A stretch of DNA of 41,183 bases from positions 1 through 41,183 of IMG/VR virus record IMGVR_UViG_3300032322_000877; one strand, written 5' to 3'. This document shows, in pieces, positions 9,061 to 35,231 of the stretch. The translations under genes and the position numbers were made by a program. This stretch comes from a virus. The notes under the pieces were generated by a model. That model saw nothing but the letters and a program-made list of their open reading frames with translations, was not told the origin of the DNA and did no database searches. The stretch's first letter is position 1. Each line of letters starts with the position of its first letter.

Positions 9061-9063
9061 AGA

Positions 9064-9813: not shown

Positions 9814-10565
9814 TATTGAGCTTCGTCTTTAGCGGTTTCACTTGCTGCGTAGTTGTATACGTCGTTGTCCCTGAGGTTCACTCCAACAAGCATCAAAATC
9901 TCCGTAACAATCTCAGTGAAATACTGCTCTGGAAGCTCAAAGTCAACGCTGTTTGCTGCAGAGTATAGCTCAACACCAGGAACTACCGAAGTATATCCAT
10001 ACGTTGGCGCAGCGGTTGTCTTCGCTCCAGTAGTAGGAACGATTCCCTGAGGCAGCTTGTAATAGCGAAGCACAATAGAAGTGACACTCGTATTTACGTT
10101 TGGAAAGACCTCAATCTGATTTCCAATCAGCGCAACTGGTGCAGTGCTCGTCGGCTTAGATAAGTCGCTGTTTAGGATTCTGTCGATGTGCTCCGTGTTG
10201 TACACAATCTGGACTTGGTACTGCTGGTATTGGCCAAGCACGTATCGTCCCGGTGTCGTTATGGAAATGACACGAGCAAAGTCTGCCGGCTTATCAACAA
10301 CTCCAGAAGCCAGGTTCAAAGTGGCTTTCTTTGAAAACGTGGAAAGGTCTTCTTCAACCTTTTTTGCCTTAGCGAACTGACGCTGAGCATCTGTGCCAGC
10401 GCGACGCATTCGCACAGCAAGGCTCATCTCGTCAAACAAACGGTTGAATACGTTCATCTGAGCGATGCCTGCGAACTCGTTGAAGATGGCCGGCGTAATG
10501 AATCCACGCTGGTCTTTGTTCGCTATGTCCTTTACTGCACGGTATACTCTTTCTACACTTGCCAT
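9813..10565 (-). CDS. Tail ring / connector protein, 250 aa
   Basis: I chose the ATG at 10565 (MASVERVYRAVKDIANKDQRG). The open frame extends further upstream, but that extension runs through a terminator hairpin and a promoter. The N-terminal half is helical (FNEFAGIAQMNVFNRLFDEM). The rest is mostly beta, including ALIGNQIEVFPNVNTSVTSIVLRYYKLP, here described in two parts of one strand pair. The C-terminus is helical. The pattern matches small ring proteins next to the portal adaptor in crAss-like phages, and it sits between the capsid-associated protein and the gp4-like adaptor. It is preceded by a TATATTTG promoter, so the tail operon can be transcribed separately from the capsid genes. 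Confidence 0.7.
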   Translation of the reverse strand: MASVERVYRAVKDIANKDQRGFITPAIFNEFAGIAQMNVFNRLFDEMSLAVRMRRAGTDAQRQFAKAKKVEEDLSTFSKKATLNLASGVVDKPADFARVISITTPGRYVLGQYQQYQVQIVYNTEHIDRILNSDLSKPTSTAPVALIGNQIEVFPNVNTSVTSIVLRYYKLPQGIVPTTGAKTTAAPTYGYTSVVPGVELYSAANSVDFELPEQYFTEIVTEILMLVGVNLRDNDVYNYAASETAKDEAQ

Positions 10566-10582
10566 AGTCTTTGGCTTTGAAG

Positions 10583-10590
10583 CAAATATA
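10583..10590 (-). promoter_or_regulatory. -7 element TATATTTG of the tail operon
   Basis: TATATTTG on the minus strand is an exact TAnnTTTG match, 17 nt upstream of the ATG at 10565 and immediately after a terminator T-tract. No convincing -33 element is visible because the hairpin occupies that place. Confidence 0.6.
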
Positions 10591-10618
10591 CAAAAAGAAA
10601 AAGGGGGCCTAAGCCCCC
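10591..10618 (-). terminator. Rho-independent terminator GGGGGC-CTAA-GCCCCC
   Basis: A six-pair G/C stem with a four-base loop (10603-10618) is followed on the minus strand by TTTTTCTTTTTG. It ends transcription of the 273-aa gene and lies directly before the tail promoter. Confidence 0.8.
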
Positions 10619-10677
10619 AGTTTGTCAGACCATGGATACCAACCAGAATGGTCTGACGCTTGATGTGTGAAACAAAT

Positions 10678-11499
10678 CTACGACAATTTCTCGAGTCGTG
10701 AAACAAGTTCCTCATATACAGACGCTCCCTTTTCTGTCAAGCAGAAACGAACCATGATATCTGTCGGGTCTTGACCAGCAGGAACAGACAGAATCAAGCG
10801 ACCGCTATCAAACCAGTATACCCCATCAGGACGAAGTGAAATGATTTGAAAATCATTTGATTGGATTACCGCAGAACGGCACTTGACACGGGGGTCGTCA
10901 AACATCTTCATGAATGCCTCCGGATTCGCCTTAGCTTCTGTGAGAAGCTCACGGCGAATTTCAATGGTCTTCTGCTGGATGTTGATGCCAAGAGCTACGG
11001 CAACAGCAAGTAGCTCGTCGAGCTCCTTGTTGCGAACGAGAGCAACAGCATCATGCAGCAAGAACTCGCGGTCAACCTGAGCCTGTACGTTACGGCTACG
11101 CTCTACGAGTTGAAATAATTCACCACCATTAGCACGGTTCTGTGGGTGCAGGTCAAGGAACTGAGCCAGGTTCGGCTTGTTCTCAGGGACAATCAGCATT
11201 CCATTACGGAAGACAATGTGCTCACGGCGTGCGCTGTAGCTTTGCTCATCCATGTATACGCTTGGCTCGTTAGGGCAGTAACGAATTCCTCGTACTTGGC
11301 GAGTCTCCTTATCGTATACGGTTGATTCAGATTTGATTTTGCAAACAATACCTCCTCCGTAAGGAATCTCATAGATTTTTTGAAGGTCTGGTGTTTGCTC
11401 CCGCTTTACAACGGGTACTCCACGCGGAGCTGTTGGAGTGGGTGCCTCGATGACACGGGGTCCGCGCTTGGCGGGTGCTGGGGTTTGTTCAGTGCTCAT
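10678..11499 (-). CDS. Capsid-associated conserved protein, 273 aa
   Basis: The N-terminal ~35 residues are Pro/Ala/Arg-rich and disordered. A beta-rich domain follows (YEIPYGGGIVCKIKSESTVYD to FRNGMLIVPENKPNLAQFLDLHP). The centre is strongly helical (LLHDAVALVRNKELDELLAVAVALGI). The C-terminal domain is small and resembles a winged helix or beta sandwich (VRFCLTEKGASVYEELVSRL). It is flanked on both sides by terminators, so it forms a unit with its own regulation between major capsid protein and tail genes. That position suits an auxiliary capsid or head-completion protein. I do not recognise a named family. Confidence 0.65.
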   Translation of the reverse strand: MSTEQTPAPAKRGPRVIEAPTPTAPRGVPVVKREQTPDLQKIYEIPYGGGIVCKIKSESTVYDKETRQVRGIRYCPNEPSVYMDEQSYSARREHIVFRNGMLIVPENKPNLAQFLDLHPQNRANGGELFQLVERSRNVQAQVDREFLLHDAVALVRNKELDELLAVAVALGINIQQKTIEIRRELLTEAKANPEAFMKMFDDPRVKCRSAVIQSNDFQIISLRPDGVYWFDSGRLILSVPAGQDPTDIMVRFCLTEKGASVYEELVSRLEKLS

Positions 11500-11521
11500 T
11501 ACTAAATGAAATTAAGAGAAA

Positions 11522-11549
11522 GAAAAAGAGGAGGGGGCCGAAGCCCCCT
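11522..11549 (-). terminator. Terminator after major capsid gene
   Basis: The hairpin GGGGGC-CGAA-GCCCCC (11533-11548) lies just downstream of the major capsid stop on the minus strand and is followed by a T/C-rich stretch (TTTTTCTTT). It is nearly identical to the hairpins at 10603 and 32466. Confidence 0.75.
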
Positions 11550-11566
11550 TCCTCAGATTTCAAGGT

Positions 11567-12961
11567 TTAGGCCTTGATAAGGATGTGCTGGTTGGCGGCA
11601 CGCGTAACCAGAGCGCACTCCGAACGGTAGTTGAACTGCAGTGAGTCCTCGTTCGTGTTAGCAACGCCCAGGATAGAACCGGTCATCCAGTGCTCCATTT
11701 CGCGGCTGTAACCATTCGTGTCCTTGTAGTTAAGCTCCAAGGCGGCGGCGCGGTTGCCAGTCTTGGGGTCAACAACAGTGGTCATAGGAATCATTACGCC
11801 GAGGTACTTCGAACCAGACAACAAGGTCGGGTCGTTGAGAAGCTTCCAAGAGTGCTTGTGGAACGTGTAAGAACCACGAGAGAACGACTTGAAGCCCAGC
11901 ATTGCAGCTTCGTTCACTTTACCACCGAATGCGTTAACACCGATAGTAGCGCTTCCGAATCCAGCAGCACCGTTCAACGTAGCAACCATATCGTCAAGCT
12001 TTAGGTCTTGAGCCGTATTGACGTACATAGCGTACTCAGGAGCAGCGCCTTGCTTGTCAAGTTCAGCAACCAAAAGGTCGAACTCGGTGAAGTCATCAAT
12101 CTGGCCAGCTTGTACGATACCGCGGTTCTCGATGGCAGAGAAGTAACCTTCGCCAGCCGTAGGAAGACCTTGGATGTTCGTGGTGGTCAGAGAGCTAGTG
12201 ATGCTTTGGCCGAGCAACAGCATCATTTCACGCTTGTCGAGGAAGCGAGCACGGGTGTCCATTTCGCCCTTAACGTACCAGCGGTAGTCGCCGTTGCCGA
12301 CGTTAATCCAGCCGATGTTCGTTGCTTGCGAACCGGTAACCTTGAATACTTCCTTGATGATGCTGTAAGGATTCGTACGCTTGATAACGTTAGATTCCAA
12401 GTAGCCAGTGTTCTGGTCGGTGCCTTGAGCAAACAGGTTACCAATAACCGGAAGGTTGATGGAAGCCGTGCTTACAGAGGCGGTCAGGCCAGTGCTAGAA
12501 AGAGCTTGGAAGGTGTAGTTAGCGGTAGCGGTGTTTGAAACTTCACCGGTCGGGCTGATAGCCGTAACGATGAAGCGGTCTTGACCACCAACAAGAACTA
12601 CGTCATTCAAGCGAAGGACAGAAGCGTCGCTGGTTGCCTTTAGGCCTACGAACGTAGTAGCAGCAGCAGCGGCAGAAGCCGTAGGAGCTACAGTTGCGTA
12701 AGAGTGCAGGCGAGTTTCTTCCCAGTATTGAACCTCATCGGCGGTACCGTTTCCGCGTACGGCGCCTGTAAGGTTTAGAAACCCCGTAAGACCGCCACTG
12801 ATTTGCTGGTAACCATAGGTTTTAACCAATTGGTCACGGTTGTCAGGAGCGTTTACTTCGTCGATGTAGTCGCCCAAGGAGCTGTACTTGGTCGGGTCAA
12901 GGCGGCGGAATACTGCTGCCTTGTTGTCGTTATAAACAGGAGGTGAGCTAGTTAAAGACAT
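11567..12961 (-). CDS. Major capsid protein, 464 aa
   Basis: Identified by length, position immediately downstream of an acidic scaffold-like gene, and capsid-like sequence. There is a short N-arm, then a helix and loop (DYIDEVNAPDNRDQLVKTYG). A Thr/Ala-rich beta insertion spans about 90-180 (TATANYTFQALSSTG). The P-domain-like helix and A-domain follow (ARFLDKREMMLLLGQ; DDFTEFDLLVAELDKQGAAP; KYLGVMIPMTTVVDPKTGN). This agrees with HK97-fold capsid proteins of crAss-like phages, which carry an insertion domain in the first half. It should form the icosahedral shell. Codon use is well biased and the gene has its own strong terminator, fitting high expression. Recognition is by pattern, not by search. 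Confidence 0.85.
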   Translation of the reverse strand: MSLTSSPPVYNDNKAAVFRRLDPTKYSSLGDYIDEVNAPDNRDQLVKTYGYQQISGGLTGFLNLTGAVRGNGTADEVQYWEETRLHSYATVAPTASAAAAATTFVGLKATSDASVLRLNDVVLVGGQDRFIVTAISPTGEVSNTATANYTFQALSSTGLTASVSTASINLPVIGNLFAQGTDQNTGYLESNVIKRTNPYSIIKEVFKVTGSQATNIGWINVGNGDYRWYVKGEMDTRARFLDKREMMLLLGQSITSSLTTTNIQGLPTAGEGYFSAIENRGIVQAGQIDDFTEFDLLVAELDKQGAAPEYAMYVNTAQDLKLDDMVATLNGAAGFGSATIGVNAFGGKVNEAAMLGFKSFSRGSYTFHKHSWKLLNDPTLLSGSKYLGVMIPMTTVVDPKTGNRAAALELNYKDTNGYSREMEHWMTGSILGVANTNEDSLQFNYRSECALVTRAANQHILIKA

Positions 12962-12969
12962 GACTTATG

Positions 12970-14076
12970 CTAGATTTTGAATGTTAAGGTTTGTTGCCGT
13001 CCGAGCGCATCTAAGATTTGCTCGGCTAAGGCGCTTTTTTGATTTTGTACTGGTGCGACTGGAGTAGATGCGTCCACGTTGGCAGCGCGTTCAACGATTG
13101 CTCGTTGTCCATCGCTAAGCCCCTGCTGGTAGATGTTCTGCAAGATGTTCGGAAGATTGTCCGTTACCGTGCGGTGCATATTCCATAGGTCGTGGTCCCA
13201 GTTGCCCTGGTCGTCCATGTACTTATCGAAGAACTTTTCCATCTGCACATTCTCCTGAAACAATTCGTTTCGGTAAGATTCGGGGATGCCGTAGTTGAAC
13301 TCTTTTCCGTTGGGCAGGTCAAATGAAATCTGTCCAAGTTCACCGAGCGACTGGTGCATTCCGCGCATCCAACCCTCATCGAACGGATTCTCAAATGAGT
13401 CAAATGTTTGCTGTTCTTCAAACTCAGGCATTTGGAATTGCTCACGGAGCGTTTCCATTTGCGTACGAGCTTTTGTAGCATCAAGCTTTAGCTGCAGGCT
13501 ACCGAGGCGAAGGTCATCTTCGCTGTAAATCGAGTCGTCCAGTTTGTATTTGCTGGACAGCAGCAGATTTACCTCTTCGTTAGAAAGGTTAGGATATTCA
13601 CTTGCGATATTGATTCGCACCGCGGTCAAATCATCCATTTCGGATGGGTCTAGAGCTTGGTAGCGGAACCAATCTTCAGGAGAACGTCCTGTCTTGGCAA
13701 CGAAGTCTGCGATAACTTGAATGCGAGGGTCAAGTTGAGCATACAAATCGGAGAACTCATCATCACTCATTCCCGAGAATGCGTCATCGGTAGGCGTTTC
13801 GCCAAAGATGTCATCTGGGAATGGCATGAATTGTTCCCCGGTAAGGGGTTCTGTCAAAGAACTCGGCTCACTTTCCGGTTGCCCCTGAGCTTGTGGCTCA
13901 GGTGCCGCCGCAGGCTGAGTCGATTCCTGCGCTTGCGGAGCTGCTTCGGTTTGCACCGGAGCTGGCTCCGTAAATTGTCCTGGGGCATCATTCATTAGAA
14001 ATGCGGGTGGTGTATCCGACACCGTAAATCCCGCACTAGTGAGTGCCTCCGCCATTTGTGATTCTGCTGAATTCAT
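12970..14076 (-). CDS. Scaffolding protein, 368 aa
   Basis: The protein is very acidic. The first ~110 residues are low-complexity Pro/Ala/Gln/Glu-rich and disordered (PAAAPEPQAQGQPESEPSS), followed by helices with many Asp, Glu and Gln and a Gln-rich C-terminus. It contains no Cys and no recognisable enzyme motif. Acidic helical proteins directly before the major capsid gene are typically internal scaffolds that guide shell assembly and are later released. A TACATTTG promoter box lies 23 nt upstream of the ATG, so scaffold and capsid protein can be made as a late two-gene unit; the capsid gene starts 8 nt after this stop. Confidence 0.75.
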   Translation of the reverse strand: MNSAESQMAEALTSAGFTVSDTPPAFLMNDAPGQFTEPAPVQTEAAPQAQESTQPAAAPEPQAQGQPESEPSSLTEPLTGEQFMPFPDDIFGETPTDDAFSGMSDDEFSDLYAQLDPRIQVIADFVAKTGRSPEDWFRYQALDPSEMDDLTAVRINIASEYPNLSNEEVNLLLSSKYKLDDSIYSEDDLRLGSLQLKLDATKARTQMETLREQFQMPEFEEQQTFDSFENPFDEGWMRGMHQSLGELGQISFDLPNGKEFNYGIPESYRNELFQENVQMEKFFDKYMDDQGNWDHDLWNMHRTVTDNLPNILQNIYQQGLSDGQRAIVERAANVDASTPVAPVQNQKSALAEQILDALGRQQTLTFKI

Positions 14077-14865: not shown

Positions 14866-15465
14866 CTACCGATAGTGTTCTCCCCCCGCCCAAAGCACGA
14901 GAGACTCTCGCAATCCGGATGTTACAGGTGTTACTCGGTGTAACAAATATGATGGGAAAATCGTCACGGTTCCAATGGTCTTAGAGGCACTGCTTATTCC
15001 GCCGCCGCTACGAATCTCAAGGTCTCCTCCATTGTAAGCAGTTGGGTCGGACAGCTGTACAACCAACGATACCTTTCGGTACGATAACTCGTTAGGTCCC
15101 GTATCCAAATGCCAGTCGTAAAAACCCTTCTCCGTGCCATCATACTGGGTGTACTGAATAGAGTCTAATACGCTGTAGAGGTCAAATCCCCACATATTTT
15201 CATTTGCTATGGTGATGTAGTTCATCAGTCGCTCGTAAACCCAAGCGAAAGCCTTATCCTTCGGTAGCCACTTGATGTTTGACCTGCGGACAACACTAAG
15301 GGCCTCGCCAGTTGCATGACTGGCGATTCCCGCCTTTGAGAAACTCACCTTCTCAATTTCCTCTTTGATTTTAGCAATTTCCTCACGAGAGAAAGCTGCC
15401 TCAAAGAAATACCACCCCGTCATATCGCGGGGCTTTCCTGGTTCAAATATCAGATTTAGATTCAT
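14866..15465 (-). CDS. PKHD-type 2OG-Fe(II) oxygenase, prolyl-4-hydroxylase-like, 199 aa
   Basis: A complete small 2-oxoglutarate/Fe(II) dioxygenase. The double-stranded beta-helix shows the metal triad H119-x-D121 (YDWHLDTGP) and H176 (SYLLHRVTPV), with R186 (GLRESLVLW) as the 2-oxoglutarate ligand. The segment YRKVSLVVQLSDP...YNGGDLEI is typical of the PKHD / phage prolyl-hydroxylase family. Length is normal for the single-domain form. The family hydroxylates peptidyl proline or related residues. Its ATG overlaps the stop of the glycosyltransferase-lysyl hydroxylase gene (ATGA), and the cassette follows a collagen gene, so collagen or another virion protein is the likely substrate. The collagen has few Y-position prolines, so the exact substrate is open. 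Confidence 0.9.
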   Translation of the reverse strand: MNLNLIFEPGKPRDMTGWYFFEAAFSREEIAKIKEEIEKVSFSKAGIASHATGEALSVVRRSNIKWLPKDKAFAWVYERLMNYITIANENMWGFDLYSVLDSIQYTQYDGTEKGFYDWHLDTGPNELSYRKVSLVVQLSDPTAYNGGDLEIRSGGGISSASKTIGTVTIFPSYLLHRVTPVTSGLRESLVLWAGGEHYR

Positions 15466-17792
15466 TTTTTGGGTTTGTTACAAAATGAGACAAGTACAAA
15501 GCGCTTTCCTTTCGTAACAGCGCGAGCACCATGTCGGTGGGTGATTACAGATGGGTGAATTGAGATGTGTCCAGTCTTGCCCTTGTGGAGCTGCTTCTGA
15601 CGCCAGAAGTAGGTTCCTCCGCCTTCATAGTCATCATTCAAAGCAAGGACCATTGAGATGTCTGCGCTATCGTGATGCAGCGCAAGATGACCCTGCACAG
15701 ACTCATCGTACTTGATGATGAAGTTTTCGCTTGAAAGCACGGGCCACTCTTTTCCTTCTAGTGCCCACTTTTGAATGGCCACCGGATAGACGAATTCCTC
15801 AAGGATTCGCTGGTAGTAATCTTGAAGTCCTAGCTCGTTGATTAGCATATCACAAGTCGGATAGAAGTAGTGTCGGTTCCTGGTCCACTTCTGAGATTCT
15901 TCCGCTTGCTCTATTAGCAAGCTGCAGAACTCTTCGGTAAACAGAGGGAAAACGAATACGTCATTGATTGGCTCATCAACAATGAGCTCCCATTCTTTCG
16001 TCCGAGCAGAGTATGTCACAAAGCGCTGCACAAACTCTTCGTAGCTATAGTTATTTAGATTCATTCTAGATAAGGCTGGTTGGTTTTCTGTTGTAGATGT
16101 CTCTTTCGTACTGCTCTGCCCAAAGAAAGCTGGAACTGTTGCGAGCGCCTTGCTGTCCTTCCAAATCCATGACAGGTCTTTTCTTGGATGGTCGCAAAAG
16201 GTAGCACTCAGAAACTCATCAAGAGGGATGATTGAGCTTAAGAAGTTCTGCTCAAGGAGAAGACGACAGCCGTCATAGGTAAGCATATACGCGTGTGTCG
16301 TATATGTATATCCAGGCTGAACAAGATTTGCAGTTACGGTCCTAACTGGCTGATTCACGAAGCTGTGACCGAGATACATAATGGTCCAGTCTTCAGATGT
16401 ATTAACCGCCTCTCTGTTGAATGGTAGAATGACGGTAAAGTCCTCCTCAAGGATGAGAATTTTGCTATGACGATGCGAATGTGCATCATTCCATATCCGC
16501 CAATGTGATACAGCACACCCAATTTCTCCAGGAAGCACGTCACGATTCCACCAGCTGTTATCGCTATTGATTTTCCAATCCTTCCAAACTTTTGTGTCTG
16601 GCGGAATCAGATTCCTTGTATAGCCGTTACTTGCATCAAAGACAACTACTTGTTTTGAGCTTATGCCAGAAGACGAGAACCGATTCAATAGCTCGGCCTT
16701 CTTTTCCTCTGTTGGGTAAAGGCAGATGATGTATGTCTTTTCTACATCATACGGCGCTGTTCTTGAGGCTGCCGGGATGAACTCGACACTATCTACCTCT
16801 AAATCATATATCTTCATACTTGATTGGTTTTGAATTTGATAAAATAACAATTCCCATTCGCTTACGACATTGCTCCAGAACCTTGTCTTGACGTAATCGT
16901 CAACACAATTCCAGCAATCAATACTATAAGCAAATTCATTTAGCGTATCCGCGAGTCCTGCAATTGGATTTACCATTGGAATCACATGATGCGCAAGCAT
17001 TTCAATAGCTGTTATGCAATAGGTTTCGTTGTACTGGGTGGGATAATACCAGTATTGCATTTGGCTAAGCAATCCATAGAGCTCTTCTTGAGAAAGAGCT
17101 CCATGGTATATGATGTTCGGATTCTTAGATATCCTGTCTAAAAACCATGACTCAAGATATTCAATACCATACCTAGGAGTACATATATGCAGTTCTCCAG
17201 ATATGACTCCGGTTTCAAAATCGTCAAGAACCTTAGAAAGGCCACGCTCTGCGTGGGACGTATAAATGTATGAATCCGCCCTCTTTTTGCCCCTTCTCCT
17301 AATTTTCTTTGCGTCAATCCCATTTCCTATGATGGAAACCTTACCATCGTGTAACCCATATCTTGAGATGAAGTCATTCTTGTGCCATCTAGTTAGGCAG
17401 ATGATTCTGTCGGTTGAATCAAACGCATGATGAATTTCGTCATCTGACATCCTGACTCCATTGTACCAGAAGTATGGCTCTTCATTGTGGAGCCAGAACA
17501 GCCTATTTTCAACCCTATGCTCACTAAATGGCTTAAGGTAATGTAGGTATCCAACACCTATTAGAAAGTCTATCTCTTGCGGGATTAACGCATTTTCAAA
17601 TGAGCAATAGGTTACGCTACCAATTGGATAGTCCGTATGCATTGGATTGACCTCTCCAAATACGTATACGGAGTGCCCAAGCTTTGCAAGCTCGTCAGAA
17701 AGACTAATCACGCACTGTTCAGTGCCACCTGGACCGCCTGTCTTTGCGTTCCATGGTTTTGAAAAGTAACCTACGTGAAATACTATGTTCAC
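15462..17792 (-). CDS. Trimodular collagen-modifying enzyme: GT4-like + GT25 + lysyl hydroxylase, 776 aa
   Basis: Three domains. Residues ~1-320 are a GT-B glycosyltransferase of GT4 type (GGPGGTEQCVISLSDELAKL; E256-x7-E264 in NETYCITAIEML). Residues ~350-565 match GT25 / collagen galactosyltransferase (GEIGCAVSHWRIW; acidic LILEED at 446-451; PLDEFLSATF with D525). Residues ~600-776 match the catalytic domain of animal PLOD lysyl hydroxylases: DVFVFPLFTEE, H706-H-D708, DYEGGGTYFW, H754, and R764 ten residues later, the spacing seen in PLOD3. The expected chemistry is hydroxylation of X-Lys-Gly lysine followed by addition of one or two sugars. The start is GTG, overlapping the upstream stop as GTGA. 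Mimivirus L230 and animal PLOD3 pair hydroxylase and transferase domains, but the three-part order here is unusual. Confidence 0.9.
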   Translation of the reverse strand: MNIVFHVGYFSKPWNAKTGGPGGTEQCVISLSDELAKLGHSVYVFGEVNPMHTDYPIGSVTYCSFENALIPQEIDFLIGVGYLHYLKPFSEHRVENRLFWLHNEEPYFWYNGVRMSDDEIHHAFDSTDRIICLTRWHKNDFISRYGLHDGKVSIIGNGIDAKKIRRRGKKRADSYIYTSHAERGLSKVLDDFETGVISGELHICTPRYGIEYLESWFLDRISKNPNIIYHGALSQEELYGLLSQMQYWYYPTQYNETYCITAIEMLAHHVIPMVNPIAGLADTLNEFAYSIDCWNCVDDYVKTRFWSNVVSEWELLFYQIQNQSSMKIYDLEVDSVEFIPAASRTAPYDVEKTYIICLYPTEEKKAELLNRFSSSGISSKQVVVFDASNGYTRNLIPPDTKVWKDWKINSDNSWWNRDVLPGEIGCAVSHWRIWNDAHSHRHSKILILEEDFTVILPFNREAVNTSEDWTIMYLGHSFVNQPVRTVTANLVQPGYTYTTHAYMLTYDGCRLLLEQNFLSSIIPLDEFLSATFCDHPRKDLSWIWKDSKALATVPAFFGQSSTKETSTTENQPALSRMNLNNYSYEEFVQRFVTYSARTKEWELIVDEPINDVFVFPLFTEEFCSLLIEQAEESQKWTRNRHYFYPTCDMLINELGLQDYYQRILEEFVYPVAIQKWALEGKEWPVLSSENFIIKYDESVQGHLALHHDSADISMVLALNDDYEGGGTYFWRQKQLHKGKTGHISIHPSVITHRHGARAVTKGKRFVLVSFCNKPKK

Positions 17793-18343
17793 CGCTCAGT
17801 AGAGAAGAAGAAGGTTTGGAACAGTCTGCCATTTTCTAAGCTGTTGCCAAAGTAGTCAAGAGATGAATGAAACTGCTTGCCTCGGTACAGTATCAATCGG
17901 TTGTACATATTCCCGACAGATGAAGTAAGCTCCCACTTTGTCATGTCCTGAGAATCATCATTCCAGTCTCCCTTTCCATCGGAAGACCAAGTGAGTCCAG
18001 AAGCCTTGTGCTTGAAGAATCCAGTTCCGCTAGATAGGGGTGCGTTTGGAGTAAGATAGACTACTCCAGCCCACTTTGTTCCGTTGTCTGCGTGTATCCA
18101 AGAGCGGTCACTGGCTGTTGTTATTTGGTAAGCCCCGTTGTAGTCTTCTGGAAAATAGTTGATTTTCCCAGCGTGGGGACCAACTATTGATTGGAGCACA
18201 CTGAATACGCTATCATTGTTGAAGCTTTTGGTGCGAGCCCCGGGGAAGTTGCCAGTTACGCTGAAATCTTGGACTAGAGCAAATGCACGAACCTCATCTG
18301 GATTGTCGTAGAAGCCATCTACAATAAAGGCATTTAGCATCAT
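17789..18343 (-). CDS. DUF6445-type 2OG-Fe(II) oxygenase, 184 aa
   Basis: Second small dioxygenase of the cassette and its first gene. The iron ligands are H84 and D86 (SWIHADNGTKWAGVVYL) and H159 (YRGKQFHSSLDYFG); R173 (NGRLFQTFFF) is the likely 2-oxoglutarate ligand. The short N-terminus FIVDGFYDNPDEVRAFAL is typical of DUF6445 proteins, which are predicted prolyl-hydroxylase-like enzymes of unproven substrate. Two ATGs stand in tandem at the start. A consensus promoter begins about 20 nt upstream, and the 3' end overlaps the next gene by 4 nt. It probably hydroxylates the adjacent collagen or a tail protein, but this is inference. Confidence 0.8.
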   Translation of the reverse strand: MMLNAFIVDGFYDNPDEVRAFALVQDFSVTGNFPGARTKSFNNDSVFSVLQSIVGPHAGKINYFPEDYNGAYQITTASDRSWIHADNGTKWAGVVYLTPNAPLSSGTGFFKHKASGLTWSSDGKGDWNDDSQDMTKWELTSSVGNMYNRLILYRGKQFHSSLDYFGNSLENGRLFQTFFFSTER

Positions 18344-18362
18344 GTGAATTCAATTTGATGCT

Positions 18363-18394
18363 CAAATGTAGTCAATTAGATGTCAAAAAACAAA
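18363..18394 (-). promoter_or_regulatory. Consensus Bacteroidota promoter TTTG-N20-TACATTTG for the modification cassette
   Basis: On the minus strand TTTG (18394-18391) is followed after exactly 20 nt by TACATTTG (18370-18363), both exact matches to the -33/-7 consensus. It drives the DUF6445-type gene and the two genes overlapping it. The -33 box lies inside the T-tract of the collagen terminator, so collagen and its modifying enzymes are separate but adjacent transcription units. Confidence 0.8.
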
Positions 18395-18415
18395 CAGGGC
18401 GCCTTTTGGGCGCCC
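18385..18415 (-). terminator. Terminator of the collagen gene
   Basis: A seven-pair stem GGGCGCC/GGCGCCC (18397-18415) with a five-base loop is followed on the minus strand by TGTTTGTTTTTT. It lies 23 nt after the collagen stop codon. Confidence 0.85.
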
Positions 18416-18437
18416 ATGTTTTTCACTATTGTGGTTC

Positions 18438-21400
18438 TTAGTTGTATTGCTGCCATGCTGGAACAAAATAGTCATTTCCAGATACACCAAATTTCAGCCA
18501 TCCAACTGGATAGTATTCTGTATCGTCTGGAGCACTGTTGAATCCACAGCTGTTACACGCTGAACCTGATGAAACGAAATTCGCACTTCCTCCATCGGCA
18601 CCCTTTTGACCCTTGGGACCCTGAGCTCCAGTTGGACCCGTAGGACCAGCAGGGCCTTGTGGACCAGTAGCTCCCTGAGGACCAGTAGGGCCTTGTGGAC
18701 CAGTAGCTCCAGTATTACCCTTTTGACCCTTTGGACCCGTAGGACCAGTAGAGCCAATGTCTCCCTGAGGACCAATGTCTCCCTTGCGGCCCTTTAGGCC
18801 CTGCGGACCCTGCGGACCAGTAGGTCCAGCGGGACCTTGAGGACCTAATGGCCCAGTAGGACCGGTTGGACCCTGAGCTCCCTGTGCTCCAGTGTTACCC
18901 TTAGCTCCCTGTGGTCCAGTAGGTCCAGCGGGACCCTGCGGGCCAAGAGGTCCAACAGGACCGGTTGGACCCTGAGCTCCCTGGGCACCAGTATTACCCT
19001 TAGCCCCCTGAGGACCAGTAGGTCCAGCGGGTCCCTGAGGCCCAAGAGGTCCAGTGGGTCCAGTGGGTCCCGCAGGACCTTGGGCTCCAGTATTTCCTTT
19101 TGCCCCTTGGGCACCTTGAGGACCAGTAGGACCAGTAGGACCTGTTGCACCTTGGGCTCCAGTTGCACCTTTCTGCCCTTGAGCACCCTGTGGTCCAGTT
19201 GGACCTGTAGGGCCAGTAGGACCAGTCGCACCAGTGTTACCTTTTGCACCCTGAGCACCAGTTGCTCCTTGAGGTCCAATTGGTCCAATGGGTCCGGTGG
19301 GGCCAACATCACCTTTTGGTCCTTGTGCTCCTGTCGGCCCGGTAGGTCCGGTTGGACCGATAGGTCCTTGAGCTCCGGTATTACCCTTTGCACCCTGAGG
19401 TCCAGTTGGGCCGGTTGGTCCAGTTGGTCCAATATCGCCCTTAGGACCTTGAGCTCCCTGAGCACCCTGCGGTCCAGTAGGGCCAGTAGGGCCAGTTGCG
19501 CCCTGGGCACCTTTCTGACCTTGAGCACCCTGCGGTCCAGTTGGACCAATAGGTCCTTGAGCTCCAGTTGCACCTTTTTGACCCTGAGGCCCAGTAGGAC
19601 CAGGAGCACCCTTAGCACCATCTTGACCAGGTTCACCTTGAGGACCGACTTGTCCTTTTTGTCCTTGAGGGCCTAGTCCGCCTTGAGAACCAGTAGAACC
19701 CTTTTGACCCTTAGCACCTTGGGGACCCGTAGGACCCTGAGCGCCTTGAGCACCTTTGGCTCCCGTTGGACCAATTGGGCCTTGAGGACCTAATGGACCA
19801 GTTGGACCGATAGGACCTTGAGCACCAGTATTGCCTTTGTTGCCTTGAGGACCCGTATCACCTTGAGGACCTAATGGACCGACTGGACCCGTAGGGCCTT
19901 GTGGACCAGTAGCACCTTGAGGACCTAAGTCACCTTTGGGACCTTGAGCACCTTGAGCACCTTTCGCTCCCGTAGGACCAGTAGCACCTTTTTGACCCTG
20001 AGCACCCTGTGGGCCAGTAGCTCCAGTTGGACCCTGGGGACCAGTAGGTCCTTGAGCACCAGTATTTCCTTTTGCACCTTGAGGCCCAGTAGGCCCTGTT
20101 GGTCCAGTTGGCCCCTGATTGCCCTGAGGGCCTTGAGGGCCTTCTTCGCCCTTGCGTCCTTTTTCTCCAATCTCTCCCTGAGCTCCAGTATTACCCTTGG
20201 GTCCTTGAGCCCCTGTTGGTCCCGTAGGTCCAGTAGGTCCAATAGGACCTTGAGGGCCTAAGTCACCTTTTGGACCCTGGTTACCCTGTGGGCCTTGCGG
20301 TCCGTCATCTCCTTTGCGTCCCTTTTCTCCAGGGCCACCAGTATCACCTTTTGGTCCAGTTGCTCCGGTAGGGCCTTGAGCACCTGTGCTTCCCTTGGCA
20401 CCCTGTGGTCCAGTAGGTCCAGTAGGGCCTACGGGGCCTCCAGGGCCCGTACGGCCCTCTTCACCTTTCTGACCTTGGTCACCTTTTTGTCCCTGAGGGC
20501 CGGTTGGACCTTGAGGACCAATGGGTCCCTGTGCTCCAGTATTCCCCTTTGTTCCTTGAGGTCCGGTAGGCCCAGTTGGACCCTGTGGACCAAGGTCACC
20601 TTTCGGGCCCTGAGCACCCTTGTTACCATCACGACCTTTTTGACCTTTGTCTCCAAGCTCTCCTTTGCTGCCCTTGTCGCCGGTAGGACCAGTATTTCCC
20701 TGGGAACCTTTTGGACCTTGGTCACCTTTAGGACCCTGGTCTCCCTTGGGGCCTTGAGCACCAGTATCACCTTTGGGTCCTAGCTGTCCGTCTCGGCCCT
20801 TTTCGCCTTTCTGGCCTTCAATGCCTTGTGGACCCTGGTCGCCTTTTGGTCCTTGCGGGCCTAGAGGACCGGTTGGTCCTATCGGGCCAGTGGCGCCAGT
20901 TGAGCCCTTGTCTCCCTGGCTTCCTTTGGGTCCAATATCTCCCTGAGGACCAAGGTCTCCCTTGGGCCCTTGGTCACCTTTAGGACCTTGGTCCCCTTTC
21001 GGGCCAACCTCTCCTTTAGGCCCAACTTCACCTTTGGGTCCTTGAGCGCCCTTATTGCCGTCGCGACCCTTGTCACCTTTGTCGCCAAAGTCTCCCTTGT
21101 TCCCTTTGTCTCCAGTAGGACCAGTGTTACCTTGAGAACCTTTAGGTCCTTGGTCTCCCTTAGGTCCTTGGTCGCCCTTTGGTCCCTGGTCTCCCTTTGG
21201 TCCCTGGTCTCCCTTAGGACCTTGAGCTCCTTTATTGCCATCACGACCCTTGTCGCCCTTATCGCCAAAGTCACCCTTGTTTCCTTTATCTCCAGTTGGG
21301 CCAGTGTTGCCCTGTGAGCCTTTTGCGCCAGTGTCACCCTTTGGTCCGACTTCACCTTTTGGACCAACCTCTCCCTTGGGCCCAACCTCTCCTTTCGGAC

Positions 21401-22799
21401 CTTGGGCGCCCTTGTTGCCATCACGACCCTTGTTACCCTTCGTTCCAAGGTCTCCTTTAGTTCCTTTATCGCCAGTTGGACCTGTATTTCCCTGAGGGCC
21501 CTTGGTTCCCTGGTCACCTTTTGGACCAACCTCTCCTTTTGGACCTAGTTGTCCGTCTCGGCCCTTTTGACCTTTCTCTCCAATTCCTTTTTCACCCTTG
21601 TCTCCTTGGGCTCCAGTGCTTCCTTTAGGCCCTACTTCTCCCTTGGGACCTTGGTCACCTTTGGGTCCTTGAGCGCCTTTGTTTCCGTCACGGCCCTTAT
21701 CTCCTTTGGTTCCAAGCTCACCTTTGTTTCCTTTGTCTCCAGTAGGGCCAGTGTTTCCCTGGGAACCTTTTGGACCTTGGTCGCCTTTAGGTCCTACTTC
21801 TCCCTTGGGTCCTAGTTGTCCGTCTCGGCCCTTTTGACCTTTTTCTCCGATGCCCTTTTCTCCTTTGTCGCCTTGGGCTCCCGTACTTCCTTTAGGTCCT
21901 ACTTCTCCCTTAGGCCCTTGTTCGCCTTTAGGGCCCTGAGCTCCTTTATTTCCGGTACGACCTTTTTCTCCTTTTTCTCCGAAACCTTTTTCTCCTTTTT
22001 GGCCAAATTCTCCTTGAGCTCCTTTTGGTCCTTGGTCGCCTTTAGGGCCTGGAGAGCCATCACGGCCCTTGGCTCCCTTTGTGCCAAGTTCACCCTTGTT
22101 TCCCTTGTCGCCATTGGTTCCAGCAGTTCCTTTTGGTCCTTGGTCACCTTTGGGACCGGGAGAACCATCACGACCCTTATCACCTTTTGTGCCAAGTTCG
22201 CCTTTGTTTCCTTTATCACCATTGGTGCCTGCAGTTCCCTTAGGACCCTGGTCACCCTTAGGGCCGGCAGAGCCATCGCGTCCTTTTTGTCCTTTGTTTC
22301 CTAATTCTCCTTTACTTCCTTTGTCTCCGTTAGTACCAGCGGCACCCTTTGGGCCAACTTCTCCTTTAGGTCCGGCAGAACCGTCACGTCCTTTTTGTCC
22401 TTTATCTCCTAGTCCTTTTTGTCCTTTGTCTCCAGCAGGGCCTTGAGCTCCCTTGGGTCCTTGGTCTCCCTTAGGTCCAGCTGCACCATCAGAACCCTTT
22501 GGTCCAGTAGGACCAGTTGGGCCCTCAGCTCCAGTATCGCCTTTAGGGCCGGTAGGGCCAGTAGGACCAGTAGGACCATCAGAGCCTTTTGGTCCAGTTG
22601 CACCAGTGGGACCAGTGGCTCCCTGAGGTCCAGCAGGACCAGTAGCACCAGTATTTCCTTTGTCTCCCTTTGCGGCCGCACCACCAGAAGCACCTTTAGC
22701 TCCCTTGGTTCCTTTTGAACCAGGGAGCTGTTGAACTCCATTGTTAGTAATCTCTACAACGAGAGGCCCAGGTAGGGTAATATCAACTTCTCCAGCCAT
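18438..22799 (-). CDS. Giant collagen-like virion fibre protein, 1453 aa
   Basis: I chose the ATG at 22799 ([20 protein letters not shown]), one nt after the upstream stop. The open frame extends to a TTG but overlaps the previous gene. Residues 1-26 form a short attachment segment. Residues ~27-1403 are Gly-X-Y repeats, and the last 50 residues are a non-collagen tail with a Cys pair (SACNSCGF) and many aromatics. The first half is charged, full of GPK, GDK, GEK and GDQ, with well over 100 X-Lys-Gly triplets. The second half is GPT/GPQ/GAQ-rich. Four single-residue breaks (G-L-G, G-F-G, G-I-G twice) interrupt the charged half. At 0.286 nm per residue a straight triple helix would be about 390 nm. 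It is probably a head or tail fibre, and the hydroxylase/glycosyltransferase cassette immediately downstream is its likely modifier. Confidence 0.92.
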
Positions 22800-22800
22800 G

Positions 22801-23184
22801 TTAGTTTGCAGCAATATCTTGAGTTACAGTGAATTGACCATACAAGTATGTAGTCACGGTATCTGGGTTAGGTGTTGGGTTTGTAGCTTGAATTTCATAG
22901 ACGTAAGTTCCTGCGTTTACAAGCATATTCGTAGAACTAATGGTGACGGTAAGAACACCAAGACTTGTTCCAGTAACGGTGATGTTTGAACTAGTAATAA
23001 CTAGCGGGCCATTGTCGTATTCTCGCACCTCCATTTTCCAAGTGTAAACACTCAGGTCAACAGCGTTACCATTTGAATCAGCAATGGTAGCAGTAAGCAC
23101 AAATGTGTCACCTCGCCAACATACAATGTCAACTCTAGTTGCTATGCTTACAACTGCAGTAGGAGTTACGGTACAACAGGACAT
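22801..23184 (-). CDS. BppU N-terminal-like / Ig-like virion protein, 127 aa
   Basis: An all-beta protein whose central pattern ([20 protein letters not shown], then [15 protein letters not shown], then [20 protein letters not shown] and [10 protein letters not shown]) resembles the N-terminal connector domain of baseplate upper protein BppU. In several phages such domains anchor fibres to the virion. It precedes the collagen gene by one nt, so it is probably the collar or anchor on which the collagen fibre is mounted. The N-terminus contains a Cys pair (MSCCTVTP). A TAAATTTG box lies 5 nt upstream of the ATG, within the end of the portal gene. Confidence 0.65.
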
Positions 23185-23188
23185 ATTG

Positions 23189-23196
23189 CAAATTTA
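23189..23196 (-). promoter_or_regulatory. -7 element TAAATTTG before the BppU-like/collagen operon
   Basis: Exact TAnnTTTG match on the minus strand, overlapping the portal stop codon and only 4 nt from the ATG at 23184. No clear -33 box. If used, the transcript would be nearly leaderless. Confidence 0.45.
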
Positions 23197-25629
23197 TTGA
23201 TTAGTTAGAGCATCCATTAGGCTGGGCTGAAACGACGGAGCCTCTCCTTGGCGCTGAGAAATCAACTTAGATTGGGCCTCTGCTTGCTTATTGATTCGGG
23301 CATCTTTACGGTTTTCCTTCATCATGTCAGTAGTCTCTTGAACCTGACCACGCACGACCTGAGAGCCCACAACAGCCTCGTTCTTGAGGCGCTGTAGCTC
23401 CATATCGTATGTGTGCTGAAGTCCCATAAGTTCAGCCTTTGATTGCGTCTCCAACTGAATCTTCTGAGCTTCAAGCTGAGCTTTTATCTGCTCTGCTTGA
23501 ATCTCTGCTTGAGAGGCTACTTGGGCAGCCTGAGCATTGGAATCAGCCTGAAGCTGGGCTTGCTGAGCTGCCTCATCCATGCGCTGACGCATACGCTTCT
23601 TACGGCGTACGACAAGCAAGCGCTCTGCTTGCTCTGGGTCTCTTAGCTGTCGGATAGCGATTGCATCTTCAAGGTCAATCTCCTTCTGAGAAAGGGCCAT
23701 GTTGATGTTCTGCTCAAGATAAATCTTAGCGCGGTCGTCCATCTCCCCCATCACGATGACACCAAAGTTGTACATCGACAGATTGTCAAACGACGTAAGG
23801 ACAGCCATGTTGGTTTCTCCTATCGCATTGGTGTAGGACTTGTAGATGATGCTCTTCGGCGGAATCACCTGAAGGCACTTAACGATGTCCTCGCATACCT
23901 TCTTGTATAGTACCTGGGCAGCATGAGTGATGTCGTAGGTAGCATTGTTAGAAGCAGCAATAGCCTGCTCGCGAACACCAACAAGAGCGTCTGCTTTAGG
24001 CGTGCTTGCGTCAACAACTTCATTGATTCCCGTAGCATCGCGAATCATGCGCAAGTAGTGGTTGTAGATTCCAACCAGTTGCTCAATGTTCCGGATGGAG
24101 TTTCCGATTTCGCGGACAGGCGGGTTTTGGAACCCGCCCTCTGGATTCTTTGAGCGGTAGTAGAATACACCAGTCTGCTCGTAGATATCTTGAATCTCCA
24201 GAGGTTGCAGTTCACCACCGCGTCCGAGTTGTACGTTCTCAAGTCCTTCGATGTCAATGATGAGACCATCAGGCTTAGCCTTAGCGATTGACTGCTGAAT
24301 CTTCAAGTGAGTGATTTGCAGCATATCGCCAAAGCCGATGATGCTTGACACCATAGACTTTGGAATCATGCCACGTAGGTTTGTGGCTACGCAAGAGTAT
24401 GAAAGGCGAGCACGAGAGATATCGTGTACGTTTTTCGGGATGTTCTTCTGAACTCCGTAGTTGAACATCAGTTCAGTTCCAATAACGAATATGCCTCCGT
24501 ATACGGTGGCATTCCTCATGTATACTGCCTCACGGTCAAATACTGATTGCTGCGGGGCATTGTACTCATGACCCTTGTAGTAGAATCCAATGTTTCCAAA
24601 CTTGGACTCTTTCTTTTCAAAGATGATATCGTCAACAGACATGAACTCAAAGTCCATGATTTGCACCTTGTACTCGTCGTATCCGTAGCGATATCGGTTG
24701 TTGATGGTTTCGTAGTTGTACCCCTGAGTAGCGTAGCGCAACGGGTCATTCCCGTAGCGATTCATAACCGTCTGAGCAATCTGCTGGTACTGCTCTTCGG
24801 TGAACTGGTTTCCAGCCAATCGCTTGAGCTCCATGATGGTGACCGTACGGAAGTGACCAGCGTAGGTCAGCTCCGTCATGTTGGGGTCATCCGTGTAGTT
24901 ATGAATGAAGTATGCGGGGTCTACGTATTGCTCACGAATTCCGTAGTTAGGGTCGTTGGTACGCTTGGTAACAGCCATGCCACAGTTAACCAAATCCTCA
25001 ACGCAGCGACGGTAGATAGCGTCGTCAAAGTCATTCCACGTAAGAGTCATCTCCGTGGCTAACTGTGCGGCGATTTCTGCGTCAGTCTTTACGTTGGTAT
25101 CCAAGAAGATTTCCGTTTCTTCTGGAGTATCTGGAAGCGCATCCGGGTCTACTTTAACGGGGAGACCAAGGGCTTTTGCCTCTTGAAGAATATCCTTGTT
25201 TTCAATGTGCAGAATAGCAACATTCTTTTTCTTGTCCTTCTCGCTACGAGAAAGGGGGTCAACGGCCTGAACCTGAGGGTACGGCTTGCGCGACAGAATC
25301 TTGTTTACTACAATGCGAACGAACTTCGGGATGATGGGGACTGGAGTGTAGTCCAGCGTAAGCATCGTTCCGTCTCCGTTGTTTGCATCCAAGGAGCTGA
25401 GAATCTGTCGGTAGATTGACGTATCCTGAGTTCCTTGTGCATAGTCTCGGTTGTTCTGCATTTCATTGAACCGACGACCGTATAGTGAGTTGTTGTAGTC
25501 AACACCAATCCACTGTGCGTACATGGCCTTTGCATACTGAAGGCCATAGCTTTGTGACATTTTTTCTTCCGTACTCGCTAGCGGGTCGGGAAAGGTAGAT
25601 TGGCCTTTTGCTGTATAATCTCTTTGCAT
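23194..25629 (-). CDS. Portal protein, 811 aa
   Basis: The ATG at 25629 (MQRDYTAKGQ) is preferred over a GTG two codons upstream. The N-terminal domain contains DYTPVPIIPKFVRIVVNKIL, typical of crAss-like portal proteins, then a long beta/alpha wing and stem. After ~650 comes a long Gln/Ala-rich coiled coil (RMDEAAQQAQLQADSNAQAA), followed by a charged tail, as in large podovirus portals with a barrel domain. It forms the dodecameric DNA entry ring. It starts 38 nt after the TerL stop, the classical packaging order. A TATATTTG box lies upstream. Confidence 0.85.
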   Translation of the reverse strand: MQRDYTAKGQSTFPDPLASTEEKMSQSYGLQYAKAMYAQWIGVDYNNSLYGRRFNEMQNNRDYAQGTQDTSIYRQILSSLDANNGDGTMLTLDYTPVPIIPKFVRIVVNKILSRKPYPQVQAVDPLSRSEKDKKKNVAILHIENKDILQEAKALGLPVKVDPDALPDTPEETEIFLDTNVKTDAEIAAQLATEMTLTWNDFDDAIYRRCVEDLVNCGMAVTKRTNDPNYGIREQYVDPAYFIHNYTDDPNMTELTYAGHFRTVTIMELKRLAGNQFTEEQYQQIAQTVMNRYGNDPLRYATQGYNYETINNRYRYGYDEYKVQIMDFEFMSVDDIIFEKKESKFGNIGFYYKGHEYNAPQQSVFDREAVYMRNATVYGGIFVIGTELMFNYGVQKNIPKNVHDISRARLSYSCVATNLRGMIPKSMVSSIIGFGDMLQITHLKIQQSIAKAKPDGLIIDIEGLENVQLGRGGELQPLEIQDIYEQTGVFYYRSKNPEGGFQNPPVREIGNSIRNIEQLVGIYNHYLRMIRDATGINEVVDASTPKADALVGVREQAIAASNNATYDITHAAQVLYKKVCEDIVKCLQVIPPKSIIYKSYTNAIGETNMAVLTSFDNLSMYNFGVIVMGEMDDRAKIYLEQNINMALSQKEIDLEDAIAIRQLRDPEQAERLLVVRRKKRMRQRMDEAAQQAQLQADSNAQAAQVASQAEIQAEQIKAQLEAQKIQLETQSKAELMGLQHTYDMELQRLKNEAVVGSQVVRGQVQETTDMMKENRKDARINKQAEAQSKLISQRQGEAPSFQPSLMDALTNQ

Positions 25630-25649
25630 ATCCACTGCGGGCTAATATG

Positions 25650-34985: not shown

Positions 34986-35016
34986 TTGACTTTACGAAAA
35001 ATATGAACTAACTTCG
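34986..35016 (+). promoter_or_regulatory. Promoter TTG-N20-TAACTTCG in gene-free region
   Basis: TTG (34986-34988, in TATTGAC) is followed after 20 nt by TAACTTCG (35009-35016), one mismatch from TAnnTTTG. It has the same layout as the promoter at 32095. No ORF begins shortly after it. Confidence 0.5.
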
Positions 35017-35017
35017 C

Positions 35018-35231
35018 TCCAGTCGAAGGACACCGCGGTAGCACACCCGACATCGCCGACGCACTAGCGTCGCCCCTGTCTCAAAACAGGGGCAGAGCAA
35101 CGGAGAGCAAAACGAACGCAGGACACTGGCACCACTACGCCACACCAACCCAGCGACACACCGCCGCAGAACCACCGAAGTACAAACAATACAGGCGCAC
35201 TATGCTCTGACGTGAGCAGCCTATTTTTTTT
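35018..35231 (+). ncRNA. Candidate structured small RNA, ~210 nt
   Basis: The 326-nt gap between endolysin and the next gene holds a promoter-like element, two adjacent hairpins (CGACGC-ACTA-GCGTCG at 35057-35072 and an eight-pair GCCCCTGT/ACAGGGGC at 35072-35093), and a terminator at the far end. No ORF with a plausible start covers it. It is GC-richer than its surroundings. The layout suggests a stand-alone RNA, but the promoter is imperfect and no known family is recognised. Confidence 0.4.
35203..35231 (+). terminator. Terminator TGCTC-TGACGT-GAGCA then T8
   Basis: A five-pair stem with a six-base loop (35203-35218), then GCCTA and eight T (35224-35231). It would end transcripts coming from the endolysin or from the candidate RNA. 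The stem is short, so strength is uncertain. Confidence 0.55.

Follow-up and report, generated by a model that had tools for sequence, protein, structure and literature searches.

A collagen-like phage fibre gene with a GT4-GT25-lysyl hydroxylase fusion downstream: a predicted cassette for hydroxylysine glycosylation

The DNA analysed in this work (the window) is the whole of IMG/VR virus record IMGVR_UViG_3300032322_000877 (41,183 bp), a fragment of a podovirus-like phage that carries a long collagen-like fibre gene and, downstream of it, a gene for a fusion of glycosyltransferase family 4 (GT4), glycosyltransferase family 25 (GT25) and lysyl hydroxylase (LH) domains. A longer record, L009 (61,835 bp), contains a near-identical stretch (99% in the fused enzyme) and agrees with the region. 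A preliminary description of this DNA had reported a 1453-aa collagen gene with three overlapping oxygenase and transferase genes, and these were confirmed by open reading frames (ORFs) and Pfam searches; the order of collagen followed by enzymes also held, with the qualification that the DUF6445 gene comes first and that the enzymes consist of one fusion and two small, optional 2-oxoglutarate (2OG) oxygenases. Pfam matches were judged against the curated cut-offs, and all domains of the cassette scored above them. The genes and domains of the cassette are:

18438..22799, minus strand: collagen-like fibre gene, 1453 aa, counted from ATG (an alternative TTG start gives 18438-22814)
17789..18343, minus strand: DUF6445 / phrog_1644 protein, 184 aa (Pfam; HxD...H...R)
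15462..17792, minus strand: GT4-GT25-LH fusion, 776 aa, GTG start (Pfam, solved-structure matches, model)
16776..17792, minus strand: GT4 domain of the fusion, residues ~1-339 (E256-x7-E264 and R183)
16086..16754, minus strand: GT25 domain of the fusion, residues ~347-569 (match: COLGALT1, C-terminal catalytic half; E449 and D451)
15474..16058, minus strand: LH domain of the fusion, residues ~579-773 (Fe ligands H706/D708/H754, 2OG residue R764)
14866..15465, minus strand: PKHD-type (YbiX/PiuC-like) 2OG-Fe(II) oxygenase, 199 aa (H119/D121/H176/R186)

The DUF6445, fusion and PKHD genes overlap successively by 4 bp, which suggests that the enzyme genes are translationally coupled, and the gap between the collagen and DUF6445 genes is 94 nt. 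The cassette is not a chance assembly, because contigs from several metagenomes repeat its gene order and the ratio of non-synonymous to synonymous substitution rates (dN/dS) of the fusion is low.

The collagen-like protein matched PF01391 above the Pfam cut-off and contains 455 Gly-X-Y triplets in five runs, the longest of 333 triplets, with an N-terminal head that is similar in relatives and a short C-terminal tip. Its length varies widely, Gly-X-Y coverage ranging from 1086 to 2071 aa among five near relatives with a complete gene. It had been called lysine-rich, and indeed 146 of its 147 lysines stand in X-Lys-Gly; within the triplets lysine was found 142 times at Y and never at X, proline 182 times at X and five times at Y, and threonine accounted for 104 of the 455 Y residues. 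Lysine contexts include KGD (36) and KGE (23), and the number of lysines per 20 triplets drops from 10 to 2-4 along the 333-triplet run. In animals Xaa-Lys-Gly is the main LH site, and lysine at X is not hydroxylated (PMC11012932). With 146 such sites beside the enzyme gene, the collagen is a suitable predicted LH substrate. Many long frames across positions 18845-22741, in other frames and on the plus strand, are shadows of the 9-base repeat of the collagen gene and not genes.

For the fusion, Pfam returned Glyco_transf_4 (PF13439, 4.4e-11), Glyco_transf_25 (1.4e-9) and an OGFOD2-like domain (6.8e-9), and the LH domain matched the solved structures of human LH3 (3.7e-21) and mimivirus L230 (1.2e-20). 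In the family alignment the iron triad H706/D708/H754 was present in 36/36 rows and the 2OG arginine R764 in 35/35 rows reaching that position; these residues equate to LH3 His667/Asp669/His719/Arg729 (PMC6082870) and L230 H825/D827/H877/R887 (PMC5802723). Of the two LH3 residues Tyr656 and Cys691 in the 2OG pocket (PMC6082870), the first is retained as Y695 and the second is replaced by Thr727. The GT25 part matched human COLGALT1 (GLT25D1) with E from 5.7e-17 to ~4e-16 over its catalytic half, GalT-C, the metal core of which is E435-D436-D437 (PMC13382579); the counterpart in the fusion is E449-E/D450-D451, with E449 and D451 in 36/36 rows and the middle position E in 29 and D in 7. Members of GT4 are retaining glycosyltransferases with an E-x7-E motif, and E256, E264 and R183 of the GT4 domain were invariant in 36/36 rows. 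The collagen-specific glucosyltransferase domain GT_PLOD (PF25342) was not found in the window fusion by Pfam at E up to 1, GT4 being present instead. In five pairwise comparisons dN/dS was 0.06-0.10 for GT4, 0.03-0.09 for GT25 and 0.02-0.03 for LH, so far as dS could be estimated (rough values, with dS >1 in 8/13 estimates), and all three domains are under purifying selection on these estimates.

An AlphaFold model of the fusion was built on 36 diverse rows (mean predicted local distance difference test score, pLDDT, 86.8); an earlier model from 8 close sequences was discarded (pLDDT 42.5). The LH part superposed on 6ax7_A (L230) with Z 24.0 and a root-mean-square deviation (rmsd) of 2.0 Å over 185 residues, the two LH domains being 29-32% identical, and the first 325 residues fitted GT4-type enzymes with rmsd ~3.3-3.6 in the best rows. 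Foldseek placed LH3 first and COLGALT1 next. In the profile and structure check proposed for PLOD and GT25 homologues, LH3, L230 and COLGALT1 were all matched. Whole-chain fits to LH3 and COLGALT1 had rmsd 11-17 and the predicted template modelling score was 0.46; the inter-domain layout was therefore not trusted, and domain-level fits alone were used.

Action of LH on this collagen predicts that X-Lys-Gly lysine content follows the presence of the enzyme. The fraction of Y positions held by lysine (Y-Lys) had a median of 0.313 in 36 LH-positive records and 0.000 in 77 LH-negative records searched whole (Mann-Whitney p 2e-15, area under the curve (AUC) 0.945), a p value not to be taken literally because the records are partly related, tract lengths differ (median 268 triplets with LH, 60 without) and short contigs were left out. 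Y-Lys reached at least 0.13 in 35/36 LH-positive and 10/77 LH-negative records. Pooled over Y positions, Lys:Arg was 3110:53 with LH and 188:88 without; these ratios indicate that lysine is needed rather than charge. The 36 LH-positive records were hand-picked to thin near-duplicates, and the records as a whole are not phylogenetically independent.

Controls were drawn from two scans, one with a GPT pattern and one with an unbiased Gly-X-Y pattern, the latter added because GPT-rich controls might make the Y-Lys difference an artefact; each gave at least 120 matches, 80 of them listed. Among the 80 listed GPT records, 47 were searched whole (contig longer than the fetched stretch), and 29 of the 46 without a strong LH match had measurable tracts; the GPT loci beyond those listed (L262-L301), all with Y-Lys of at most 0.12, were not searched whole and were not used. 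In the unbiased scan 50 of 83 measurable loci were searched whole, longer contigs being preferred, and the 48 without a strong LH match were used. With the unbiased control alone the separation remained, more weakly (AUC 0.991 to 0.917). L204 and L337 were counted as LH-negative despite weak matches to short proteins (8e-8 and 5e-16), and L410 (unbiased set, Y-Lys 0.15), not searched whole, was left out. Among the GPT controls, locus L244 (G077) proved to carry LH (4e-59); its Y-Lys was 0.22. As to composition, L392 (G135, 170 kb) holds three collagen-like genes: one is GSSGSSGTSG-rich, and the other two, rich in GPQ/GPI, have four Y-Lys apiece. The Gly-X-Y tracts of L338, L361, L372, L375 and L406 are almost entirely Gly-Ser-Ser/Gly-Thr-Ser, nearly without proline or lysine, and no LH was found in L338, L361, L372 or L375, searched whole.

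The cassette recurs. A scan for the fusion family gave 21 loci, 16 of which include a collagen ORF that has at least 15 triplets in a row, the other five having less than 1.8 kb upstream of the enzyme gene; tracts in L021 and L022 are short and broken, and presence of DUF6445 and PKHD varies among the loci. A scan with the LH domain found 115 relatives, and the best 80 of these were kept: 65 have the architecture GT4-GT25-LH, 10 GT4-LH, 4 GT25-LH (three of them cut at a contig edge) and 1 is an LH fragment. A collagen ORF lay in the fetched stretch of 42 of these 80 loci, ending a median of 646 bp before the enzyme gene. The remaining 38 comprise 25 that are cut less than 3 kb upstream and 13 that form a large-phage group, in six of which (L087, L088, L089, L090, L097, L100) collagen was found elsewhere in the whole record. 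On the 168 kb phage contig L075 (positions 8900-10612, 6984-8891), a 570-aa GT4-LH protein without GT25 has as neighbours two collagen genes, a GT2 gene and a PKHD oxygenase. Other loci with GT4-LH are L069 and L078-L080, and tblastn of the phage collection with this variant gave no match at E 1e-10.

On the minus strand the terminase and portal genes are followed by the 127-aa gene, which precedes the cassette of collagen, DUF6445, fusion and PKHD; beyond PKHD lie two small genes, one gene without an assignment, and then genes that carry virion-structural PHROGs labels. Two of them were used to follow the fibre position in relatives:

22801..23184, minus strand: phrog_1084 gene, 127 aa, between portal and fibre, marking the fibre slot
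23194..25635, minus strand: portal protein; through its relatives, phages with a different fibre at this position were identified

The portal search gave 69 loci, 39 of them extending 1.5 kb or more past the portal. Collagen was seen in 25 of the 39, including 11 that also show the enzyme gene, partly or whole, and 9 further loci with coordinates given in which the collagen reaches the end of the stretch. The other 14 show no collagen, those displayed holding another fibre in the same slot; L122 and L137, with portals 90% identical over long stretches, are among these 14. In L122:12452-17483 and L144:12443-17256 (portals 90% and 72% identical) the slot holds a quite different, non-collagen fibre set, a natural swap of fibres among related phages. 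When 24 portal-relative records were searched whole, 15 had no collagen (the two longest 66 and 54 kb, the others short) and LH was found in 0/15 of these; three had both. From this pattern, collagen and enzyme seem to come and go together. The window portal is ~28-30% identical to portals of Flavobacterium 'elemo' and Cellulophaga phages, so that a Bacteroidota host is likely. Elsewhere in the window, at 35000-39000, the AT skew changes sign; no ORF longer than 209 aa lies there, and adjoining it is a 479-aa frame that continues past the right end of the window.

A related enzyme was found in cultured phages. With the window fusion, tblastn gave partial matches alone, in 15 phage records, and these led to Synechococcus phages S-CAM9, S-PRM1 and S-8S53/55/56 and Roseobacter phage CRP-6, in which a protein of 589-621 aa (four measured) has the order GT25-GT_PLOD-LH; it was found in 11/50,697 phage records. 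GT_PLOD was scanned in S-CAM9 (7.6e-47) and CRP-6 (4.5e-28), the other phage proteins aligning over their full length. The S-CAM9 protein matched LH3 over the glucosyltransferase stretch (3e-24) and the LH stretch (2e-5), and matched mimivirus R699 (4e-32), which has been shown to glucosylate galactosyl-hydroxylysine (PMC9546862). In S-CAM9, S-PRM1 and S-8S55 the enzyme gene lies ~1.5 kb downstream of a fibre whose Gly-X-Y part spans 165-177 aa, and in CRP-6 it lies ~0.4 kb downstream of one whose Gly-X-Y part spans 297 aa; collagen was present in 4/4 genomes checked, and none was seen in an 8.4 kb single-virus fragment. The genes are annotated as hypothetical or as 2OG oxygenase, and the records name as hosts Synechococcus WH 7803 (S-PRM1), WH 8102 (S-8S53/55/56) and FZCC0042 (CRP-6). 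In S-CAM9 (L177, KU686205.1 22593-48236), locus 4806-13665 holds the collagen-bearing fibre, two small 2OG oxygenases and the GT25-GT_PLOD-LH protein. Judged by homology, the S-CAM9 set is a predicted homologue-for-homologue counterpart of the animal lysine pathway. The earlier proposal that counterparts of all three animal steps lie in the window was partly right, since LH and GT25 are there and the third place is taken by GT4, without GT_PLOD; judged by homology, all three counterparts are present, fused, in S-CAM9 and CRP-6.

The two small oxygenases are less closely bound to the system. The DUF6445 protein matched PF20043 (1.9e-11, 44.8 bits against a cut-off of 24), gave no match among solved structures, and has ligands H84/D86/H159/R173 invariant in 8/8 alignment rows; it is a probable 2OG-Fe(II) oxygenase. 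The PKHD gene matched 2OG-FeII_Oxy_3 (8.8e-12), with H119/D121/H176/R186 invariant in 7/7 rows, so that the complete iron and 2OG ligands reported at the outset for all three oxygenases are invariant in their family alignments. In the phage collection, 38 records of cyanophages and marine viruses have a DUF6445 relative, against the 11 with the GT25-GT_PLOD-LH protein. Both oxygenases are absent from some relatives that keep collagen and fusion (L021, L052-L059), and because collagen and fusion occur without either, they were rejected as part of the core of the cassette.

LH relatives are also found in bacteria. A genome scan gave 18 loci, in Thiothrix, Leucothrix and others, in which LH is single-domain or accompanied by GT4 or GT25; single-domain proteins occur in filamentous sulfur bacteria (L414, L420 and L422 in Thiothrix, L417 in Leucothrix, and relatives). 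Collagen-like proteins were encoded elsewhere in 6/6 LH-bearing bacterial genomes searched (three of them Thiothrix) versus 2/14 unrelated controls. In L419, a contig of a Flavobacteriaceae metagenome-assembled genome that may be phage, GT25-LH and GT4 are two genes ~0.6 kb apart, as if the fusion had been split.

The best explanation of these observations, to which a probability of about 0.74 is given, is that the phage builds a long collagen fibre and supplies its own hydroxylation and glycosylation enzyme for the lysines of that fibre. The phage would assemble a very long collagen triple helix, predicted to measure near 390 nm for 455 triplets at a rise of 0.286 nm per residue; the LH domain would hydroxylate the Y lysine of X-Lys-Gly in the nascent, unfolded chain, using Fe(II), 2OG and O2; GT25 would next place the first sugar (galactose or another hexose) on the new hydroxyl, as COLGALT1 does; and the retaining-type GT4 would last add the second sugar, in place of the PLOD glucosyltransferase domain of the animal and cyanophage versions. 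The PKHD and DUF6445 oxygenases would be accessory, with other fibre positions as possible targets. GT4 is assigned to the second sugar because its place in the chain is that of the glucosyltransferase domain in LH3, because the second transferase of the cyanophages is a PLOD-type domain, and because GT4 and the glucosylation step of LH3 (PMC11012932) are both retaining. The phage would probably benefit from a fibre that is hydrated, resists proteases, and is stiff or coated with sugar.

The predictions that lysines of the fibre are hydroxylated and that a GT25-type reaction adds sugar to hydroxylysine are well supported by homology, catalytic residues, linkage and covariation, and the initial claim of hydroxylysine-linked glycans on the fibre is accordingly upheld in part, for these two steps and not for a homologue of the third. 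The data establish the presence of the genes, the homology of their domains, the integrity of the catalytic residues, purifying selection, collagen linkage and X-Lys-Gly covariation; we infer that the reactions take place, with which sugars and in what order, and that virions carry the modified collagen. A wider statement, that bacterial viruses carry a complete and self-contained collagen hydroxylysine-O-glycosylation pathway in two forms (GT4-GT25-LH and GT25-GT_PLOD-LH), moving with the fibre as a module and sharing ancestry with the animal and giant-virus enzymes, so that the supposedly animal set would have been present in viruses of prokaryotes, is put forward tentatively, at somewhat less than even odds.

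Several observations weigh against the fibre-modification reading and are considered here together with the alternatives. In the LH domain, Cys691 of LH3 is replaced by Thr727 in the alignment. In the GT25 domain, the DxD at COLGALT1 461-463, which is needed in GLT25D1 together with the DxD at 166-168 (PMC3244457), reads D-W-T in the window and is variable in the family; the region of the uridine diphosphate (UDP) site Arg351 is not conserved in the fusion family; and the N-terminal glycosyltransferase domain of COLGALT1 (DxD 166-168) has no counterpart in the fusion, where GT4 is found instead. Because of these missing features the donor or acceptor of the GT25 domain may differ from that of COLGALT1, and the domain was classed as a GT25 domain possibly COLGALT1-like and not as COLGALT. 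The GT4 domain, of GT-B fold, is not homologous to the PLOD glucosyltransferase, of which it is an analogue, and as 10 of the best 80 LH loci keep GT4-LH without GT25 (in L075 beside a GT2 gene), GT4 may add the first sugar in some phages.

It is accordingly conceivable that LH hydroxylates the collagen and that the fused transferases act elsewhere, on host surface sugars or phage or host glycans, or on threonine at Y, leaving a fibre with hydroxylysine and without hydroxylysine (Hyl) linked sugars. The lack of conservation at Arg351 would suit this, as would the breadth of the GT25 and GT4 families (Pfam GT25 is named for lipopolysaccharide biosynthesis), the abundance of threonine among the Y residues and the separate GT4 gene of L419. 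We consider it unlikely, since 69 of the best 80 LH loci encode GT25 and LH as one chain and 79 of them join LH to a glycosyltransferase of some kind, since in the cyanophage version LH shares its chain with GT25 and with the collagen-specific PLOD glucosyltransferase domain, and since threonine-rich collagens are common in records without LH (in which separate glycosyltransferases were not searched).

The covariation has its own exceptions: the ten LH-negative records with Y-Lys of at least 0.13; seven loci outside the test that reach this value with no strong LH match on the contig (L187, L189, L197, L216, L220, L224 and L228, all short contigs of the GPT set, of which L189, a portal relative, breaks off in the collagen region); and L392, which has LH yet a Y-Lys of 0.01. 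High Y-Lys could reflect triple-helix stability alone, through Lys-Gly-Asp/Glu ionic pairs, the correlation with LH arising from shared ancestry of a few lineages. The frequent KGD and KGE contexts, the existence of KGD-type collagens without LH (10/77 records) and the phylogenetic dependence of the records are in keeping with this. Arginine at Y is another triple-helix-stabilising residue, and is nearly missing with LH (53 against 3110 Lys) and far less so without it (88 against 188); high Y-Lys recurs in unrelated phages (cyanophages, CRP-6, L244); and stability leaves the presence of LH unexplained. This account is rated as improbable, a little below the preceding one.

Linkage is likewise incomplete. 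No collagen was found in the whole records of seven large-phage loci (L082, L083, L085, L092, L094, L096, L101; fragments of 14-28 kb), nor in the fetched stretches of the 18 bacterial LH loci (at most 10 kb on each side, often less). Six of the 24 portal-relative records searched whole have collagen without LH (L124, L132, L139, L140, L147, L159); the slot behind the collagen is unreadable in these because the collagen lies at or near the contig end. A specific tie of DUF6445 or PKHD to collagen found no support in the sequences compared. That the oxygenases and transferases are general cargo modifying nucleic acids, host proteins or glycans, with collagen an accidental neighbour, as the cyanophage DUF6445 relatives with no known collagen link, the PHROGs labels 'minor coat protein' and 'DNA endonuclease' attached to these families and the single-domain bacterial LH relatives might suggest, is the least probable of the three alternatives, since collagen linkage across unrelated phages (podophages, 86-168 kb contigs, cyanomyophages, CRP-6) and X-Lys-Gly covariation with LH would be unexpected and the best solved-structure matches are collagen enzymes.

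Hydroxylysine glycosylation of collagen has been treated as a trait of animals and of amoebal giant viruses. If the fibre-modification reading is true, a whole class of phage fibres would be sugar-coated collagen made in bacteria by phage enzymes, and virion glycosylation of this new kind would bear on adsorption and on how stable the fibre is; the enzymes would offer bacterial-type tools for modified recombinant collagen and a new angle on the origin of PLOD and COLGALT. The idea is directly testable now, because cultured phages with named hosts carry GT25, PLOD glucosyltransferase and LH near a collagen-bearing fibre.

The chemistry and the domain families are known, and the combination of domains is new; in the open-licence literature, as distinct from subscription papers and preprints, the available text held no account of lysyl hydroxylase or hydroxylysine glycans in bacteriophages. 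In a review of prokaryotic collagens, those of phages are described as ~18-residue stretches, and mimivirus is the virus named where viral modification of collagen is mentioned (PMC8968730). Collagen-like fibres of phages and prophages, such as those of E. coli O157 prophages (PMC3368898), share the Gly-X-Y repeats in a fibre gene; unlike the window fibre, the LH-negative phage collagens sampled mostly have almost no lysine at Y and shorter tracts. The cultured-phage GT25-GT_PLOD-LH system resembles that of the window in combining phage-borne LH, GT25 and a second transferase downstream of a collagen-bearing fibre, and differs in that its second transferase is of the true PLOD type and its collagen is a segment of 165-297 residues in a larger fibre. 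Mimivirus, with L230, R699, R655 and collagen L71, likewise has a viral collagen and a viral LH fused to a glycosyltransferase, and a GT25-like protein, R655, in the set (PMC9546862); it is, however, a eukaryotic giant virus, the transferase of L230 itself puts glucose on hydroxylysine, and R699 and R655 are separate genes, whereas in the window GT4, GT25 and LH form one protein behind the fibre gene. Animal PLOD3/LH3 and COLGALT1 have homologous LH and GT25 domains with most catalytic residues the same, and the LH3 order of glycosyltransferase, glycosyltransferase-like accessory domain (PMC6082870, PMC13382579) and LH compares with GT4, GT25 and LH in the phage; the phage protein lacks both the PLOD glycosyltransferase domain and the inactive N-terminal glycosyltransferase domain of COLGALT1, and fuses in one chain what animals split over two proteins.

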